A stretch of 61,814 bases of DNA from Castellaniella caeni NBRC 101664 (lineage in GTDB: Bacteria; Pseudomonadota; Gammaproteobacteria; Burkholderiales; Burkholderiaceae_B), in contig NZ_BCWN01000022.1 in NCBI RefSeq assembly GCF_001592225.1, positions 1 through 61,814 of the forward strand. Reading direction: 5' to 3'. This document shows positions 5,588-31,539 of the stretch, one piece after another (within the stretch, counting starts at the first letter, position 1; every line of letters begins with the position of its first letter). The position numbers were made by a program, and so were the translations under genes. The notes under the pieces were generated by a model. It did no database searches, was not told where the DNA came from, and was given only the letters and a program-made list of their open reading frames with translations.

Positions 5588-6871
5588 ATGACCACCGTCA
5601 TTCAATCCTTTGAAGTACTGGATGTCCGTTTCCCCACCTCGAAGCAGCTGGACGGATCGGACGCCATGAACCTGGACCCCGACTATTCCGCGGCGTACGT
5701 CGTGTTGCGAACGAGCGTGGCGGGCCTGGAAGGGCATGGCCTGACGTTTACCATCGGTCGGGGCAACGAAGTCTGCTGCGCCGCCATCCGCGCGCTGGCC
5801 GATCGGCTGGTGGGGATGGAACTCTCCTGGATCACCGAGGACCTGGGCCGGTTCTGGCGGTTCATGACGTCCGATAGCCAGCTGCGCTGGATCGGGCCGG
5901 ACAAGGGCGCCATCCATCTGGCGACGGGGGCGGTCGTCAATGCCGTATGGGATTTATGGGCCAAGGTGGTGGGCAAGCCGGTCTGGCAGCTCGTGGCGGA
6001 CATGAGCCCGGAAGAACTGGTCAAGCTGATCGATTTTCGCTACATCACCGATTGCATCACCCCTGACGAGGCGCTGGCGCTGTTTCGGCGTGGTGAAGCG
6101 GGCAAGGCCGCGCGCCGCGCCGATCTGCTGGAAAACGGCTACCCCTGCTACACGACGTCCGCCGGCTGGCTGGGCTACGATGATGCGAAGCTGCGGCGTC
6201 TGGCGCAAGAAGCGGTCGATCAAGGCTTCACGCACATCAAATTGAAGGTCGGACGCGATCTCGACGACGATATCCGGCGCTTGCACATCGCCCGGGAAGT
6301 GCTGGGGCCCGATCGGATTCTGATGATCGACGCCAATCAGATCTGGGAAGTCGATCAGGCGATCGACTGGCTGAAGCAGCTGGCGTTTTCCCGCCCCTGG
6401 TTCATCGAAGAACCCACCAGCCCGGACGACGTTGCCGGCCACCGGCGTATCCGGCAAGCCGTGGCGGGCTCGATGCGCGTGGCGACCGGGGAAATGTGCC
6501 AGAACCGGATCCTGTTCAAGCAGTTCATCATGGAAGGCGCGGTGGACGTCGTACAGATCGATGCCTGCCGTCTGGGCGGGCTGAATGAAGTCCTGGCGGT
6601 CATGCTGATGGCGGCGAAGTACGGGCTGCCCGTGTGCCCGCATGCGGGCGGCGTGGGTTTGTGCGAATACGTGCAGCATCTGTCGATGATCGACTATCTC
6701 TGCGTCTCGGGTACGAAAGAAGGCCGCGTCATCGAATACGTCGATCACTTGCACGAGCATTTCCTGGACCCCTGCACTATTCGTCACGCGGCCTACATGC
6801 CGCCGTCGCGCCCTGGCTACTCCATCGAGATGAAGCGCCAGTCGCTGGAAACCTACCGCTACCGGGGGTGA
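5588..6871 (+). CDS. L-fuconate dehydratase
   Basis: Enolase-superfamily dehydratase, 427 aa from the ATG at 5588; the reading frame is open further upstream, but that stretch overlaps the SDR gene. It dehydrates L-fuconate to 2-keto-3-deoxy-L-fuconate. The N-terminus (FEVLDVRFPTSKQLDGSDAM, then NLDPDYSAAYVVLRT) is characteristic of FucD rather than of rhamnonate or galactonate dehydratases. Superfamily catalytic residues are all present: K218-x-K220 base, metal ligands D248, E274 and E302, and H352 in CPHAGGVGL. These match the positions I recall for Xanthomonas FucD almost exactly. It is the most diagnostic gene of the cluster and fixes the substrate as L-fucose. Confidence 0.93.
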   Translation: MTTVIQSFEVLDVRFPTSKQLDGSDAMNLDPDYSAAYVVLRTSVAGLEGHGLTFTIGRGNEVCCAAIRALADRLVGMELSWITEDLGRFWRFMTSDSQLRWIGPDKGAIHLATGAVVNAVWDLWAKVVGKPVWQLVADMSPEELVKLIDFRYITDCITPDEALALFRRGEAGKAARRADLLENGYPCYTTSAGWLGYDDAKLRRLAQEAVDQGFTHIKLKVGRDLDDDIRRLHIAREVLGPDRILMIDANQIWEVDQAIDWLKQLAFSRPWFIEEPTSPDDVAGHRRIRQAVAGSMRVATGEMCQNRILFKQFIMEGAVDVVQIDACRLGGLNEVLAVMLMAAKYGLPVCPHAGGVGLCEYVQHLSMIDYLCVSGTKEGRVIEYVDHLHEHFLDPCTIRHAAYMPPSRPGYSIEMKRQSLETYRYRG

Positions 6872-6876
6872 TCGTG

Positions 6877-8545
<1,669 letters not shown>

Positions 8546-10641: not shown

Positions 10642-11619
10642 TCATGCCGCGTCCGGCGCCGTAGGCGTGGCAAAACGCCCCGAACCCAACTCAACCAGCG
10701 CCTTACCTCGGCGCAACAGCCACAGCGCCTCCAGGCCGTGCCGGTGTGCCAACGCCAGACCCTCGCTCGGGCCGGCCACCAGCAATGCGGTGGCCCAGGC
10801 GTCGGCATCGATGCAGGCGGGCGCCAGCACCGTGACGCTGGCGACGCCGTTGTTCACTGGCGTGCGGCTGCGCCCATCCATGCTGTGCGCCAGACGCACC
10901 TCGCCGACCTGCACGAAATGCCGGTAGTCACCCGAGGTGGCGACTGCCAGATCCTGCAGTTCGATCACGCCCTGTGCGGTGCGTACATCGGGTCGGGGAT
11001 TCTCCAGTGCCACGGCCCAGGGCGCGCCACTGGCCTGGGCGCCGATGGTGCGCAACTCGCCATCGAGCGCCGCCAGAGCGTGGTGCACGCCGTGCTGCCC
11101 AAGCACGGTACACAGGCGATCGACCGCATAGCCCTTGGCGATGCCACATAGGTCGAGCTGTAGCGGCGCGTGCTTGCGCACCCGGCCCGCGGCCAGATCC
11201 AGCTCAAGGGCTTGCGGTGTCGGCGGGCGTTCGGTATGGCGAGCGGCGCGGATGGCCTCGGCATCCGGCGTGTCGCGCGCCGCGCCAAAGCCCCAGGCAT
11301 CGACCAGTGCACCGACGGCGGGATCAAATACTCCGTCGCTCAGGCGGCAGACTTCGAGCGCGCGCGCCAGTACCTCCAGCAGTTGGGGCGGTAGCGCTAG
11401 CCAATCGCCCACCGGCGCGCGGTTGAGCTGGTTCAGTGCGCTCTCGGGCTTCCAGGGCGACATCTGCTCGTCCACCTGCTCGACTGTATCAGTCAGCGCC
11501 TGGCGCAGCGCACCCACGTCCAGCGCCGACGGTACGTCGCAGCGTACGGCCCAGTGTGTGCCCATGGTCGGCCCGAACAGTTGCAGCCGGTGTAATGGCT
11601 CAGAACAGGTCTTCGGCAT
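10642..11619 (-). CDS. apbE: FAD:protein FMN transferase (ApbE)
   Basis: ApbE transfers FMN from FAD to a Thr/Ser of target proteins. The 325-aa sequence has the family segments FGPTMGTHW (15-23), DLCGIAKGYAVDRL (156-169), DGELRTIG (186-193), ATSGDYR (227-233), HSMDGRS (245-251) and DADAWATAL (271-279), so it looks catalytically complete. Unlike classic ApbE lipoproteins it has no signal peptide or lipobox, and an in-frame TGA a few codons upstream rules out a longer N-terminus. It overlaps the reductase gene by 20 bp and is the last gene of the leftward operon. The likely substrate is the DUF2271 protein of the same operon. Confidence 0.92.
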   Translation of the reverse strand: MPKTCSEPLHRLQLFGPTMGTHWAVRCDVPSALDVGALRQALTDTVEQVDEQMSPWKPESALNQLNRAPVGDWLALPPQLLEVLARALEVCRLSDGVFDPAVGALVDAWGFGAARDTPDAEAIRAARHTERPPTPQALELDLAAGRVRKHAPLQLDLCGIAKGYAVDRLCTVLGQHGVHHALAALDGELRTIGAQASGAPWAVALENPRPDVRTAQGVIELQDLAVATSGDYRHFVQVGEVRLAHSMDGRSRTPVNNGVASVTVLAPACIDADAWATALLVAGPSEGLALAHRHGLEALWLLRRGKALVELGSGRFATPTAPDAA

Positions 11620-13804
11620 AGCGCCCCTCGGTTTTCAGTGTGTTCACGTCAAGGCCCAGCGGCGCCAGCAGCGCGTCGAGTACCTCGATCACGCCCTGAG
11701 CCATGGGGCGGCTGCCACAGACGCGCACGGCGGCGCCGGCGGCCAGCAGCGTGCGCAGGCGTTCAGCATCGCGGCGCAGGATATCTTGCACATAGCCGCC
11801 GCCGGGCACGCGCGAGAAGATGGTGTTGACGCTGGCCACGCGCTGCTCGGCCCGCCAGCGCTCGATCTCGGACCCGAAGTAATAATCGGTGGCCGGGTCG
11901 CGCGCGCCGAAGTACAGATGCATGGGTGTGCGCTGGTCGTTGCGCCGGATGAAGCCTGCCAGCGGCGCTACGCCGGTGCCGGCGCCGATCAGCAGCACGC
12001 TCGGATGCCGACCGCTCAGGGCAAAGCCTGGGTTGGCGCGGATGAAGGCCTGTGTGCTGTCCCCCGGCTTGAGTCCCAGCAGGTGCGTCGAGCACACACC
12101 ACCGGGCCACTGGCGCACGCAGATTTCCAGAAAACCGTCGGCGCTGCCTGAAGCCAGCGAGTAATAGCGCGCCACCGTGCTGCCGGGCGCTACGATACCC
12201 ACCAGGTCGCCCGCCTCGAAGCGCGCCAGGCCGCGCCCGAGCACGCGCGCCAACCACGGCTGGCGCGGCCAGGCAAAGCGCAGGATGGCCGTGGGTCGAT
12301 CCGCCTGGCTGGGGTAGTCGCGCCGCTCGACCAGCATCAGCGCCGTGGTGGTTGGCAGGCGTGGCCGGTATTCGATCGCCAGCGGCTGGCCCAACGTCTG
12401 CACCAGCGCCTCGCCCCAGCGGACGAACTGCTGCGCCGACTGTTGGTGGATGATCTCCAGCGGCAGCAAGGTCGGGTGTCCCTTGGTGCGCAGCGCCTCG
12501 TCGATCGTCTGGGCAAAAGCGCCGAAGGCCGGGTACTGGCGATCGCCAAAGCCCAGCACGGTCACCGGCACGCTGCTGACACCTTGTGCAGTGATGCGCG
12601 CCAGCGCATGGCGTGCATGCGTGGGTGGCTGGCCGTCGCCGTGCGTGGCGGCGAGGACGAACACCTGGCGTGCCGTCGGCGTGATCTGAAAGTGCTCCAG
12701 ACCCGAGCTGTGCACGCGCCGCCCGGCACGAACCAGCGCGGCGTGCAGCGCCTGGGCAAAGCCCCAGGTGCTGCCGCCCTCGCTGGCGACGAAGATCAGC
12801 ACTTCGGCCTGCTGCAACGCGCTGTTGTCATCAATGCGTATGAAGTTTTGTCGAACTTGCCGCCAGATCAGTACACCGGTGAGCCAGAACAGCAGCACGG
12901 AGAGGCCGGCGAGACCCATCACTACGGCCCAGGGCCAGGCGCTCTCGCCAGTGTGCAGCACACGTGCCCAGTCATCGAGCCGCTGCATCAGGGTCGCCTC
13001 TTGCCAAGCCAAGGTATCACCGCTGTGGCGGTCGATCCAGCCCTGGCCGCGCGTCGTCGCCACCTGCCAGGTATCGGTGGGATCATCCGCACCGGGGAGG
13101 TTGACGCGGCGCAGCTCGCCGACGCCAAGATCGCGCAGCAGCGCAAGCTGCGTCGGCGCCAGGTCGGCCTCCTCGCTGACACTGGAAATGACGTCGGGCT
13201 CGGGCCCGGCTTCCAGCTCGACCAATCCCAGGGTCGAGGCGCTCATGGTCAGCGCTGTGATCGATGACAGCAGCAGCAAGACCAGGACTATCCGACCCGC
13301 CAGCACATGCAGGCGCTGCGCCAGCGTGCCGCGCACCCGGCCTGCCACATGGCGCCAACCGCCCATGCGGTGCAGCAACAGCACCAGGCCCGAGATCGAG
13401 AGCACCACCATGGCCAGCGCGGTGGCCGCCGTGCCCCAGCGTCCGCCATCGCCCAGCAGTAGCGCGCGGTGCAGGTTCTTGACCCAGCGCGGCAGGCTGG
13501 AGGGCTGGTAGTTGCCCAGTAACTGGCCGCTGGTCGCATCGACGTAGCGCGCCTGCGCCTGATCGCCGTCGAAACCGAAGGCCGCGATTGCGCCCGAGGG
13601 CAGGCGGCGGATTTCCTCGACGTCGGGCATGGCCTGCCGCACCTGTTGCACCAGCGTGGCCACCGGCAGGTCGGTCGACGCCGTCGGCGCCTGCCAGGCC
13701 TGTTGCACCGGATCCAGTGCCAGCAGCGCACCCGAGAGGCTGAGTACCAGCGCCAGTGTGCCCAGGCTCAGGCCTAGCCATCGATGGATGGCTTTCCAGT
13801 TCAT
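11600..13804 (-). CDS. Membrane flavoreductase: PepSY-TM domain fused to flavodoxin and FAD/NAD(P)H domains
   Basis: Protein of 734 aa that should carry electrons from NAD(P)H through FAD and FMN toward or across the inner membrane. Residues 1-320 form a PepSY_TM region with four membrane segments (about 10-30, 124-146, 170-190, 292-315) and histidines near their ends (H7, H112, H145, H167). A flavodoxin-like FMN domain follows (about 333-475), then a sulfite-reductase/P450-reductase type FAD domain (RYYS at 546-549, GGVCS at 568-572) and an NAD(P)H domain (GAGTG at 607-611, CGSRPMA). It lies 10 bp after the DUF2271 gene and overlaps apbE. Electron acceptor unknown; metal or haem reduction is a guess. 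Confidence 0.85.
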   Translation of the reverse strand: MNWKAIHRWLGLSLGTLALVLSLSGALLALDPVQQAWQAPTASTDLPVATLVQQVRQAMPDVEEIRRLPSGAIAAFGFDGDQAQARYVDATSGQLLGNYQPSSLPRWVKNLHRALLLGDGGRWGTAATALAMVVLSISGLVLLLHRMGGWRHVAGRVRGTLAQRLHVLAGRIVLVLLLLSSITALTMSASTLGLVELEAGPEPDVISSVSEEADLAPTQLALLRDLGVGELRRVNLPGADDPTDTWQVATTRGQGWIDRHSGDTLAWQEATLMQRLDDWARVLHTGESAWPWAVVMGLAGLSVLLFWLTGVLIWRQVRQNFIRIDDNSALQQAEVLIFVASEGGSTWGFAQALHAALVRAGRRVHSSGLEHFQITPTARQVFVLAATHGDGQPPTHARHALARITAQGVSSVPVTVLGFGDRQYPAFGAFAQTIDEALRTKGHPTLLPLEIIHQQSAQQFVRWGEALVQTLGQPLAIEYRPRLPTTTALMLVERRDYPSQADRPTAILRFAWPRQPWLARVLGRGLARFEAGDLVGIVAPGSTVARYYSLASGSADGFLEICVRQWPGGVCSTHLLGLKPGDSTQAFIRANPGFALSGRHPSVLLIGAGTGVAPLAGFIRRNDQRTPMHLYFGARDPATDYYFGSEIERWRAEQRVASVNTIFSRVPGGGYVQDILRRDAERLRTLLAAGAAVRVCGSRPMAQGVIEVLDALLAPLGLDVNTLKTEGRYAEDLF

Positions 13805-13814
13805 GTCTGACTCC

Positions 13815-14291
13815 TTACTTCAGCTGGAAGCTGGCCGACTGGATGTACTGCTTGCCTGCCTGCGGCTTGCCGACGTTTGCCGCCGTCAGAGGCAGACGCA
13901 CCTCGGCCGGACTGTCGCGCATGTCTTCGACTGCGGCGTCGATGCGAATTTCATAGCCGGCGTCAATCAGCGCATCAGCCAGATCGGCCGTCACCTTGAG
14001 CGTGCGACCGGCGCCGACGCTGGCGCCGGTCACCCCTTGCAGACGCTTGGCGTCACCAGACGAGAAGCGATTCCAGTCCGCCAGGTGCTTGTAGTACTTG
14101 GCCTTGCCACCGGCCACCCAGAGTGTGCCGACGTAGGCACCCTTGGCATCGATCAGGTAGACCGCCAGGTAGGCGCCGTCGCCGCCGTAGTTCTTCAGCT
14201 GGGTGGCGATGGTGACTTCGCGCGCCTGGCCGAGGGCGGGCACGGCCAGCGCACAGGCTGCGGCAATGGCGGTGATCAGGGGTTTGGACAT
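13815..14291 (-). CDS. DUF2271 protein with a candidate ApbE flavinylation site
   Basis: Exported 158-aa protein of family DUF2271. A signal peptide covers about residues 1-23 (cleavage near GQA|RE). The ATG at 14291 has AGGAGAATCC upstream; a longer open frame to 14441 is not needed. The central segment contains Asp80 and then T-G-A-S at 88-91, which matches the [ST]-G-A-[ST] motif whose last residue receives FMN from ApbE. The rest is a beta-rich domain with the conserved YLAVYLIDAKG and WNRFSSGD pieces. Its place between a PepSY protein and a flavoreductase, with apbE in the same operon, supports a periplasmic flavoprotein electron carrier. Flavinylation is inferred. Confidence 0.82.
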   Translation of the reverse strand: MSKPLITAIAAACALAVPALGQAREVTIATQLKNYGGDGAYLAVYLIDAKGAYVGTLWVAGGKAKYYKHLADWNRFSSGDAKRLQGVTGASVGAGRTLKVTADLADALIDAGYEIRIDAAVEDMRDSPAEVRLPLTAANVGKPQAGKQYIQSASFQLK

Positions 14292-14319: not shown

Positions 14320-14733
14320 TCATTGCACCTGGCCGCGCGGCGTGCCGCCCGGGGTAAAGAGGGGTGAGGAAGGGGCGGCGTCGGCGTCCTGCGATGTGTG
14401 GTCGCGCCGGTGCTCGCGCTCCCGATCCTTGTGATGGTCATCGTGCTCGCGCGACTTGATCTTCAGCACCTGCAGGGTCTCGGGATCGAGCTTGGCCTTG
14501 AAGCGCCGACCCTGGGCGTCGGTGCCACGGATTTCGTAGCAACCGTCATCGATCTTCAGTCGCTCAATCTGCCAGCCCTGCTGCGCCGCCAGCTCGCGCA
14601 CGGCCTCGCGCGACTGCCATTGCGAGGTCGGCGCGTCGCAATCGCTGGATGCCAACACTGGTAAGGAGACCACCGTCAATATCAAGGCCAGGATGGCCCG
14701 CTGTGGTTTGAAATGTGGGGCTTGTTTCATCAT
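14320..14733 (-). CDS. Small periplasmic PepSY-domain protein
   Basis: Protein of 137 aa with a signal peptide (LALILTVVSLPVLAS, cleavage near residue 29) and one PepSY-like domain at about 35-92 (SREAVRELAAQQGW, CYEIRGTDAQGRRF, LDPETLQVLKI). The C-terminal tail from about 95 is highly charged and His-rich (EHDDHHKDREREHRRDH), plausibly metal binding or disordered. First gene of the four-gene leftward operon; AAAGGA precedes the ATG at 14733. It lies downstream of an elaborate four-half-site promoter array. Exact function unknown; a partner of the membrane PepSY reductase is inferred. Confidence 0.75.
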   Translation of the reverse strand: MMKQAPHFKPQRAILALILTVVSLPVLASSDCDAPTSQWQSREAVRELAAQQGWQIERLKIDDGCYEIRGTDAQGRRFKAKLDPETLQVLKIKSREHDDHHKDREREHRRDHTSQDADAAPSSPLFTPGGTPRGQVQ

Positions 14734-14771: not shown

Positions 14772-14830
14772 ATTCTGGCAAACCGCGCGTGAACCGGTGT
14801 TGAACCGATGGTTCATCTTGCGTTCATCCG
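14772..14830 (-). promoter_or_regulatory. Promoter module with four 11-bp-phased half-sites (copy A)
   Basis: On the plus strand the pattern TGAA-N7-TGAA-N7-TTCA-N7-TTCA starts at 14790, so the four half-sites are spaced exactly one helical turn apart and are symmetric. Reading leftward, the direction of the PepSY-DUF2271-reductase-apbE operon, a CAGAAT -10-like hexamer (14772-14777) follows 11 nt after the last half-site flank. The same 59-bp arrangement recurs upstream of cytochrome b561 at 30484-30542 without gaps. Paired repeats with 11-bp spacing are typical of OmpR/PhoB-type response regulators. Confidence 0.7.
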
Positions 14831-14910
14831 ACCGAGGCAATGGTAGGTCGGGTTCTTGCCAGTGCGGGTAGCCCCGCGCCCGGAATAGAAGGCAAGGTGA
14901 AAGGGCTTGC

Positions 14911-29786: not shown

Positions 29787-30362
29787 TCAGAGCGACCCTT
29801 TGGCGTGCGCTGAAGGCAGCATGTTGTGCAAGGTGTCGTCACGTATTATGTAATGGTGCCAAAGCGCCGCCAACGCGTGCAGACCAATCAAGCCATAGCC
29901 AATTTTGCCAATGGTCTCGTGGATTGCCTCCATAGACTTGGCAAAGGCGGGATCCGCCGTAACGAGTGCTGGCAAATTCAAGCCATACAGCGGCACAGGC
30001 TTTCCTTTTGCGCTCAGGACGACCCAGCCCAGCACCGGCATCACCACTAGAAAGGCATACAGGGTCCAATGCATGGCAGTCGCCAGCCTGTGTTGCCAGA
30101 GGGGTGGCGCGGGGTGAATGTCCGGGGCCGGAAAAATCCCGCGAAGGATCAGGCGGATGAACACAAGGCCGAAGACCGTCAGGCCCAGCATTTCATGCCA
30201 TATCTTCATCAGATCATGCGCAGCAGTGCCCTTGGGGTAGATCCCTCGTAATTCTATGAGCGCATAGACGGCAATCAGAAGGATCACGGTCAACCAGTGC
30301 GCCGCGATTGACATTGGATGAAATGACGAAACCTGGATGTTGGCAAGTGGCTGCTGTTGCAT
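29787..30362 (-). CDS. Cytochrome b561 family protein
   Basis: Four-helix diheme membrane cytochrome, 191 aa from the ATG at 30362 (AGGA lies 7 nt upstream); an in-frame GTG at 30386 would add eight residues. Helices are at about 18-36, 56-75, 97-116 and 153-170, and the haem histidines fit H22, H56, H148 and H162. Such proteins pass electrons between quinol and periplasmic acceptors. It is a single-gene unit with a short leader ORF and the same four-half-site promoter module as the DUF2271/ApbE operon, suggesting joint regulation and a linked electron-transfer role. Confidence 0.88.
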   Translation of the reverse strand: MQQQPLANIQVSSFHPMSIAAHWLTVILLIAVYALIELRGIYPKGTAAHDLMKIWHEMLGLTVFGLVFIRLILRGIFPAPDIHPAPPLWQHRLATAMHWTLYAFLVVMPVLGWVVLSAKGKPVPLYGLNLPALVTADPAFAKSMEAIHETIGKIGYGLIGLHALAALWHHYIIRDDTLHNMLPSAHAKGSL

Positions 30363-30382
30363 GATGGCATCCTGGACGAGGT

Positions 30383-30424
30383 TCACAAGGGATCAGGGGC
30401 AACGATGTTTGTGTTGGCAGGCAT
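30383..30424 (-). CDS. Possible 13-codon leader ORF ahead of cytochrome b561
   Basis: ATG at 30424 with a strong AGGAG ribosome site 8 nt upstream encodes MPANTNIVAPDPL, and its TGA overlaps an in-frame GTG (30386) of the b561 reading frame. It could couple or tune b561 translation. No homology can be claimed for so short a peptide. Confidence 0.35.
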   Translation of the reverse strand: MPANTNIVAPDPL

Positions 30425-30483
30425 AGTGATGGCTCCTTTGAATATCACCGAATTGTTCCGGTATTGAGCCGGGGCTTGATGTC

Positions 30484-30542
30484 ATTCTGGGCATTACCAG
30501 GTGAACCAATGATGAAGGACGTATTCATCTGTCATTCATCCG
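30484..30542 (-). promoter_or_regulatory. Promoter module with four 11-bp-phased half-sites (copy B)
   Basis: The plus strand reads TGAA-N7-TGAA-N7-TTCA-N7-TTCA from 30502, and a CAGAAT hexamer on the minus strand (30484-30489) lies 11 nt beyond the array flank, exactly as in copy A at 14772-14830. Across the 42-bp array block the two copies match at 29 positions without a gap. It sits about 120-180 bp upstream of the b561 start. Confidence 0.7.
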
Positions 30543-30756
30543 GATGTTGCTATAAGGCCTTCCTTGATGAATACGAACTTGCATATTTTGCCGAGTGCCA
30601 GAGCCGTTCTGCGAAGATGTTGTTATGACAGCGCTGCCGCCCGTCCATGCTGATCTTCACGATCCGTGAATTCGTCGCGGGTGAACTGCGGGCTCTGGCG
30701 CAAAACAACCAGGAGCTGATTTCCTTCTGCCTGGAACATGAGTTGTTTTAGTGTGT
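30543..30756. other. Intergenic stretch without a recognised gene
   Basis: Together with the promoter module it completes a gap of about 390 bp between cytochrome b561 and the IclR gene. A short open frame from 30648 on the plus strand has no recognisable motif and runs into the antisense of the IclR gene. No RNA gene, repeat or terminator with a T-run is seen. Confidence 0.5.
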
Positions 30757-31539
30757 TTATCCCCGCCAGGCCCCCAGCCGCTCGGACAGCCGGTCGGCCA
30801 GCTTGCGGATGGCCTGGCCCGCGCGCGCTTCGAGCGCCGGGTTGGCTTCCAGCGAGCGGATGCTGACGGCCACGCCGGCCACGGCTTCGGGGTGGTGCGA
30901 ATCGAAGACCGGGGCGCCGTAGCAGTACATGCCCTCGCGCACGCCCTCGTGATCCATCGAGTAGCCGCGCTGCCGGGTGTCCTGCAGTTCGGTGATGAGC
31001 CCCTCGGTGTCGCGCACCCCCTTGGCGGTGAAGGGCGCGGGCCAGGCGTATGCGGGTGCGCCAAACAGCTTGCGGATGCCCGAGTCGGGCAGGGTGCTGA
31101 GCATGGCCAGCCCCGTGGCCGTGTACACCGCGGGCATGCGCATGCCCGCGTGAAAGCTCAGCCCCAGGGGATGCTTGCCGTTGCGGCAGGCGATGTAGAC
31201 CACTTCCTCGCCGTCGCGCACCGACAGGGTGATGGTTTCTTCGGGCAGCACGCGCATGTCATCCCAGGAGGCGAAAAACTCTTGCGTGATGTCCAGCCGC
31301 GCCATGAAGGCGTTGGCCCACATCATGACGTGCGGGCCCAGCGTCATCAATCCGCTGTCCACCCGGGTGATGAGATTGAGCTGTTCGAGTGTCGTGCACA
31401 GGCCGTGCAGGCTGCTCTTGGGCAAGGCCAGTGCCTTGGCCAGGGTGGCCAGCGAGACGGGGCTGCCGGTGCGCGCCATGAAGTCGAGGACGGCGGTGGC
31501 GCGGGCGACGGCGGGGGCGGCGAGTTTGTCGGCGGGCAT
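30757..31539 (-). CDS. IclR-family regulator of the semialdehyde dehydrogenase gene
   Basis: IclR protein of 260 aa from the ATG at 31539; two further in-frame starts (31572, 31599) are possible and none has a strong ribosome site. The winged HTH covers about 10-75 (VSLATLAKALALPKSSLHGL), and the effector domain has RDGEEVVYIACRNG, TATGLAMLSTL and QRGYSMDHEGVREGM. It is divergent from an aldehyde dehydrogenase gene across a gap with a near-perfect 22-nt inverted repeat. Local repression of that gene is inferred. Confidence 0.87.
   Translation of the reverse strand: MPADKLAAPAVARATAVLDFMARTGSPVSLATLAKALALPKSSLHGLCTTLEQLNLITRVDSGLMTLGPHVMMWANAFMARLDITQEFFASWDDMRVLPEETITLSVRDGEEVVYIACRNGKHPLGLSFHAGMRMPAVYTATGLAMLSTLPDSGIRKLFGAPAYAWPAPFTAKGVRDTEGLITELQDTRQRGYSMDHEGVREGMYCYGAPVFDSHHPEAVAGVAVSIRSLEANPALEARAGQAIRKLADRLSERLGAWRG

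Follow-up and report, generated by a model that had tools for sequence, protein, structure and literature searches.

Several features of a four-half-site DNA module in Castellaniella caeni NBRC 101664, namely its motif, its spacing, its -10 elements, its co-occurrence with a regulator and the close kinship of that regulator with FeuP, with which it shares a box, indicate that the module is a symmetric, two-way promoter element of the activator type. Very probably, each of its arms is a class II activator promoter bound by a FeuP-type regulator of the OmpR family, and the four half-sites amount to two such promoters. The window, by which we mean the whole stretch of 61,814 nucleotides that was analysed, contains two copies of the module.

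Both copies follow the pattern TGAA-N7-TGAA-N7-TTCA-N7-TTCA, to which no strand is assigned. The first array (14790 to 14826) is one of four perfect sites in the genome, and its half-sites (14790-14793, 14801-14804, 14812-14815 and 14823-14826) start at steps of 11 bp, at 14790, 14801, 14812 and 14823, in mirror order. The second array, found by the pattern search and likewise perfect, occupies 30502 to 30538. A preliminary description of the window had placed the two modules at 14772-14830 and 30484-30542, and both arrays were confirmed there with no mismatches. With up to three mismatches allowed, the window contains these two perfect matches and one with three mismatches, whereas shuffled versions of it contain 0.08 matches on average. 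The modules had also been described as being of the same length, 59 bp, and free of gaps, and an ungapped alignment indeed gives 38 identical positions out of 59; the reported identity of 29 out of 42 was reproduced over 14789-14830, and the bare arrays agree at 24 of 37 positions. On the minus strand, each copy is followed by a -10 element, CAGAAT, at 14772-14777 for the leftward operon and at 30484-30489 for the cytochrome b561 gene. The claim that this hexamer stands at a fixed distance holds, given that the distance is equal in both copies, but the hexamer and the outer TTCA are separated by 12 nt and not by the 11 nt originally given.

On the plus strand, the mirror position holds a degenerate hexamer in the first copy (AATGGT, 14839-14844, matching TATAAT at three of six positions) and an intact -10 in the second (TATAAG, 30551-30556, five of six). 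No target gene was recognised to the right of 14839-14844, and the two-way reading is inapplicable to this site at present, because the -10 of its right arm has decayed and no gene lies there. Downstream of 30551-30556, no gene was recognised up to about 30750, and a search of the window from 30300 to 31000 gave no Rfam match; the right arm of this second module may be the promoter of a transcript that is not annotated, or it may be left over from a divergent gene that has been lost.

The genes behind the two copies are those that had been proposed. For the first, Pfam confirms a PepSY-DUF2271-flavoreductase-apbE operon, encoded throughout on the minus strand. It begins with a small PepSY_2 protein (14320 to 14733; PF13670, 1.4e-28), whose ATG is preceded by a Shine-Dalgarno-like AAGGA, and continues with a DUF2271 protein (13815 to 14291; PF10029, 3.5e-35), whose start we placed at MSKPLI, a fusion of a PepSY_TM protein with flavodoxin and FAD/NAD reductase domains (11600 to 13804; Pfam) and an ApbE flavin transferase (10642 to 11619; PF02424, 7.4e-78). 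DUF2271 has been shown to be a substrate of ApbE that becomes flavinylated, and PepSY-like clusters have been tied to iron reduction (PMC8238504). The DUF2271 protein found here contains TGAS, which fits the published flavinylation motif [S/T]GA[S/T] (PMC8238504), and a Caulobacter PepSY-DUF2271 operon has been linked to fitness under EDTA (PMC12004947). A plasmid search with the reductase gene returned three records covering 3% of the query and no informative match. Behind the second copy, PF01292 (2.3e-24 for the frame 29787-30386) identifies a cytochrome b561 on the minus strand at 29787 to 30362, its start being inferred at the ATG at 30362. Between the b561 promoter and this start, there is a 13-codon frame (30383-30424, minus strand) that may encode a leader peptide, MPANTNIVAPDPL, and that is accompanied by a strong ribosome-binding-like sequence, AAAGGAG.

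When the whole genome of 3,282,217 bases was searched with up to two mismatches allowed, four full modules were found, all of them without a mismatch; there were no sites with one or two mismatches, and the reversed-pattern control gave no match. As had been predicted, the matches were few and all four face redox or PepSY genes: in addition to the two loci of the window, one on contig C6 precedes a ferric-reductase-like FAD/NAD protein, and one on contig C9 precedes a small PepSY_2 protein. A half-module, defined as TTCA-N7-TTCA plus, at the spacing seen in the sites, the two best positions of the -10, was matched 11 times in the genome and never in the control, compared with 66 genome and 11 control matches for the bare TTCA-N7-TTCA without a -10. 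Seven of the 11 face genes of the regulon type, namely the four full-site targets, a b561 gene on each of contigs C4 and C3 and an operon on contig C23 that encodes a regulator; one is the outward arm of a window site, and beside the remaining three, on C8, C13 and C25, we recognised no redox gene. Half-modules with one mismatch were noisy (60 in the genome and 22 in the control), and inspection by eye revealed no further convincing target among them. The earlier suggestion of an electron-transfer regulon of at least two loci is therefore supported by all four full sites, and the half-modules add two b561 genes and the regulator operon. The predicted regulon would comprise the PepSY-DUF2271-flavoreductase-ApbE operon, three b561 genes, the ferric-reductase-like gene, the small PepSY protein gene and the regulator operon, and it would serve electron transfer in the membrane and the periplasm, possibly the reduction of ferric iron.

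The module is conserved in relatives, as the preliminary description had anticipated. Counting C. caeni itself, it is present in perfect form in nine of 61 near genomes and in 83 of 268 genomes of the family, with no match to the reversed control in any of them. The family scan yielded 91 sites, of which 61 were read, and the 60 distinct ones were used for the counts of geometry and neighbourhood. Forty-nine of these 60 lie upstream of a PepSY-response regulator-kinase operon, and on the opposite side of 44 of the 49 there is a PepSY or ferric-reductase gene (one more, at L064, is found by Pfam). Ten of the 11 remaining sites (four from C. caeni, L005, L006, L007, L031, L035 and L062, but not L067) precede a ferric reductase, PepSY or b561 gene or a DUF1924-diheme cytochrome-b561 operon. 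The last of these, to the left of the module at L062 (genome G104), encodes a DUF1924 protein, a diheme cytochrome c and a cytochrome b561, and widens the electron-transfer theme. Across the phylum, the full module was found in nine of 349 genomes besides C. caeni. Two of these matches fit the regulator-linked pattern, one in the same order (L208, where the module adjoins PepSY-regulator-kinase) and one in which the module adjoins its regulator by coordinates (L201); others are L202, L203, L205, L206, L209, L210 and one place in genome G554. Four genomes of the family to which Mesorhizobium belongs (L204, L207, L212 and L213) have two full four-half-site arrays that lie 205-289 bp apart, and at L213 a CoaD-like frame was seen by eye close by.

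The geometry of these sites is what reveals the nature of the element. Although the sites had been selected without any -10 criterion, a hexamer matching TATAAT at no fewer than four of six positions stands exactly 12 nt outside the array in 109 of 120 arms (60 distinct sites), whereas none of the remaining gaps between 0 and 25 nt gives more than 14 such arms. The same spacing is found in 53 of 62 arms when the largest genus is excluded, in 22 of 24 arms of 12 sites from 11 genera (genus g1 being represented twice) and in five of the eight arms of C. caeni. A table of base composition by column shows good -10 hexamers but, at the distance expected of a -35 element, no consensus resembling TTGACA; the half-sites lie there instead. 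Furthermore, of the arms pointing at a recognised target gene, 101 of 103 retain the -10, as opposed to eight of the other 17 (Fisher p = 1e-7); four targets added by hand would change this to 105/107 and 4/13, but L066 and L068 are unconfirmed as PepSY, so the automatic table was used. Such retention on gene-facing arms and decay elsewhere is expected of a two-way class II promoter after gene loss. Thus, in most of the relatives that were read, the element appears to be a promoter for both directions whose -10 boxes mirror each other, a property that the preliminary description had missed.

The second pair of half-sites in both window sites might be a functionless relic of a lost divergent promoter, which we regard as a serious possibility, if not the favoured one. 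Single arms are all that is found at the second and third b561 genes of C. caeni and at its regulator operon, and at 14839 the outward -10 has degenerated. Against a relic, the outward -10 is weak (at most three of six) in three of the four full sites of C. caeni, and yet all eight half-site bases are perfect; the absence of C. caeni sites with one or two mismatches also hints at selection on the four half-sites, a hint that is weak because the search pattern itself selects perfect half-sites.

The same geometry bears on whether the module could be a repressor operator, through which the regulator would block two divergent promoters. Since the half-sites lie across the -35 region, a protein bound to them might also shut out the polymerase; the column table, however, shows no TTGACA-like consensus there, the half-sites taking that place with a 12-nt spacing that does not vary, as is the case in class II activation, and FeuP has been described as being needed for the activation of its targets (PMC3616915). 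Repression is thus quite unlikely, and activation by a FeuP-type regulator is the reading that we retain.

The preliminary description had proposed an unlinked regulator of the OmpR/PhoB type, and a candidate was found on C23, another contig of the draft assembly. This protein (about C23:23322-23987) has the Response_reg and Trans_reg_C domains of the OmpR family and is the best match in C. caeni to the module-adjacent regulator of its relatives (62% identical; the next C. caeni protein, 44%). Against NCBIfam, it scored below the cut-off of all of the best 25 models, the best being PmrA (230.8 of 330). Its operon (5946-8396 in locus L060) encodes, in order, a small exported PepSY protein, the regulator and a kinase, and is preceded at C23:22890 by a single-arm box of two half-sites, TTCATCCCCCATTCA-N12-TAAGCT. 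Orthologs of the regulator (E <= 1e-84) are present in 102 of the 268 family genomes, including all 83 that have the module: both occur in 83 genomes, the module alone in none, the regulator alone in 19 and neither in 166 (Fisher 4e-51, with kinship ignored). Within genera, genomes with both and with neither number 34 and 9 in g4, 4 and 6 in g53, and 2 and 7 in g16, and genera g62 and g64 have relatives of the regulator that are 49-57% identical and no perfect module. The co-occurrence partly reflects linkage and shared descent, because the module adjoins the regulator gene in most of the relatives read; the evidence for action in trans proper comes from C. caeni, where the modules lie on C22, C6 and C9 and the regulator on C23, all of them draft contigs. 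The patchy distribution of the regulator in the family (102 of 268 genomes) and its being nearer to rhizobial regulators than to its own paralogs suggest loss or horizontal transfer.

The rhizobial connection leads to FeuN-FeuP-FeuQ of Sinorhizobium meliloti. Between the C23 regulator and S. meliloti FeuP, the identity is 62.4% (45% for the next C. caeni paralog), and between the C23 kinase and FeuQ it is 34.5% over 467 columns. The feuPQ genes have a role in iron in Rhizobium. In a tree that has long paralog branches and that does not include S. meliloti FeuP among its rows, the C23 regulator groups with family relatives and with Mesorhizobium, Chelativorans and Nitratireductor, apart from the nine other C. 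caeni paralogs (99/99). As in C. caeni, the annotated S. meliloti record has the genes for a small protein, the regulator and the kinase in that order (feuN-feuP-feuQ), and the feuN promoter has the same layout of TTCA-N7-TTCA, 12 nt and a -10 (TTCATTTGCCATTCA, 12 nt, TAATGA). TTCA-N7-TTCA has been published as motif 3, which precedes 12 genes, among them five that depend on FeuP, and as a candidate FeuP site (PMC3616915). In sequence, the half-module is this published candidate FeuP box, a point that had escaped the preliminary description.

Of the 29 best regulators with loci that a scan of 349 genomes of the phylum gave outside C. caeni, 28 belong to another class; one of the genera is Mesorhizobium, recognised by an identical protein sequence in a scan of named genomes. 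TTCA-N7-TTCA lies upstream of 21 of these 29 once the loci are re-oriented; in the named scan, it lies upstream in 78 of 80 loci, with none in the control. The boxes of FeuP-like loci are situated 250-480 nt ahead of the regulator start, and among 76 distinct ones, a -10-like hexamer is found at a gap of 12 in 50, the next best gap (21) accounting for 17. On the megaplasmid of Cupriavidus metallidurans CH34 (L216), a FeuP-like regulator and kinase are preceded by a TTCA-N7-TTCA box about 400 nt upstream. The Burkholderia BiofilmReg operon was considered and rejected as a counterpart; it is a different operon, described as having a LysM/FecR protein between regulator and kinase (PMC5192318).

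There are also differences from S. meliloti. The module has four half-sites in mirror order and forms two promoters in most of the relatives read, and its predicted targets are membrane electron-transfer genes, whereas FeuP is known for ndvA, the cyclic glucan exporter gene that is its known target (PMC3616915, PMC12486126). The half-module pattern has 13 matches in the S. meliloti record and none in the control; one match is 289 nt upstream of the gene for a glucan ABC transporter, and none has an annotated ferric reductase, b561 or PepSY gene beside it, the annotation being incomplete, so the two regulons seem to differ. No glucan exporter was seen beside the half-module matches of C. caeni. 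One S. meliloti half-module adjoins coaD and is oriented away from it. FeuN is a periplasmic protein described as binding and restraining FeuQ (PMC12486126). The small PepSY protein occupies the place of FeuN, but a relation between the two is not demonstrable: BLAST finds no match, hhalign gives 9.9%, and no Pfam family matches FeuN at E 0.1. By analogy of position, with no support from sequence, the PepSY protein is a possible restraint on the kinase.

The genome of C. caeni encodes 10 full-length OmpR-type regulators, and TTCA-type direct repeats resemble the boxes of several members of this family, so one might ask whether one of the nine others binds the module while the FeuP-like protein merely travels with it. 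We consider this very unlikely: 49 of the 60 sites lie in the divergent promoter of the FeuP-like regulator itself, no module-bearing genome is without this regulator, S. meliloti feuN-feuP-feuQ carries the same box, and the paralogs differ in what we take to be the recognition helix. Chance similarity of two promoters, conceivable as long as two copies in one window were all that was visible, can practically be dismissed given the 0.08 matches expected in shuffles and the complete absence of the reversed control from every genome searched with the full pattern.

According to the FeuP-type mechanism that we propose, each arm would function as a class II activator promoter composed of TTCA-N7-TTCA, 12 nt and a -10 hexamer, with a head-to-tail dimer of the regulator sitting in the place of the -35 element and recruiting RNA polymerase. 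The full module would then be two such promoters back to back around one common centre, to whose four half-sites two dimers may bind cooperatively. In most of the relatives read, both directions would be switched on, one being the regulator's own operon of PepSY protein, FeuP-like regulator and FeuQ-like kinase and the other a PepSY or ferric-reductase gene. In C. caeni, the regulator operon, located on another contig, would use its own single-arm box, and the modules, presumably bound by the C23 regulator, would front membrane electron-transfer genes. The inducing signal can be guessed to be the periplasmic redox or iron state. More speculatively, and with considerable doubt, we suggest that the two dimers converge on a shared centre and drive both the sensor operon and the redox target in balance, that PepSY proteins on both sides close a loop in which the FeuQ-type kinase reads the state of a periplasmic chain of electron transfer or iron reduction and that this lineage has spread the module from a single locus into an unlinked regulon.

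Other known systems share some of these traits. The AgrR box of C. metallidurans, as described in PMC7380067, also serves an OmpR-family regulator, with an inverted repeat and, at some operators, in-phase flanking direct repeats; divergent operons among the targets, a type II activator position and autoregulation are further similarities. It differs in its ATTACA half-sites, 6-4-6 core and imperfect flanking repeats and in its targets, which are concerned with silver and metal resistance (PMC7380067). The main operon of the window is of the ApbE/DUF2271/PepSY-like flavinylated electron-transfer kind, for which iron reduction has been proposed (PMC8238504); the excerpts of that paper name no regulator for these clusters, whereas here a box of the two-component type precedes the operon. 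Searches of an open-access library, mostly at the level of titles, gave no sign of the mirror-symmetric module with its two directions, of its presence in the family or of the electron-transfer regulon, and they gave no paper that joins PepSY, cytochrome b561 and a two-component system, or FeuP and betaproteobacteria. In tandem boxes of the PmrA/PhoB type, two direct half-sites 11 bp apart replace the -35 element; their half-site sequence is different, and they have a single orientation. The regulator and the half-box are of a known kind, and what appears to be new, as far as these searches go, is the two-way module, the fact that it occurs in the family and the electron-transfer regulon.

To our knowledge, the regulation of membrane electron-transfer proteins such as PepSY/DUF2271/ApbE, ferric-reductase-like proteins and cytochrome b561 has been little studied, and the present analysis puts forward for them a regulator with its box and a regulon that can be tested. 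It also suggests that one regulator and its box have kept their promoter geometry from the rhizobia to the Castellaniella lineage while the targets changed. With its fixed 12-nt spacing and mirror layout, the module would provide a clean system for studying how one activator serves two divergent promoters.
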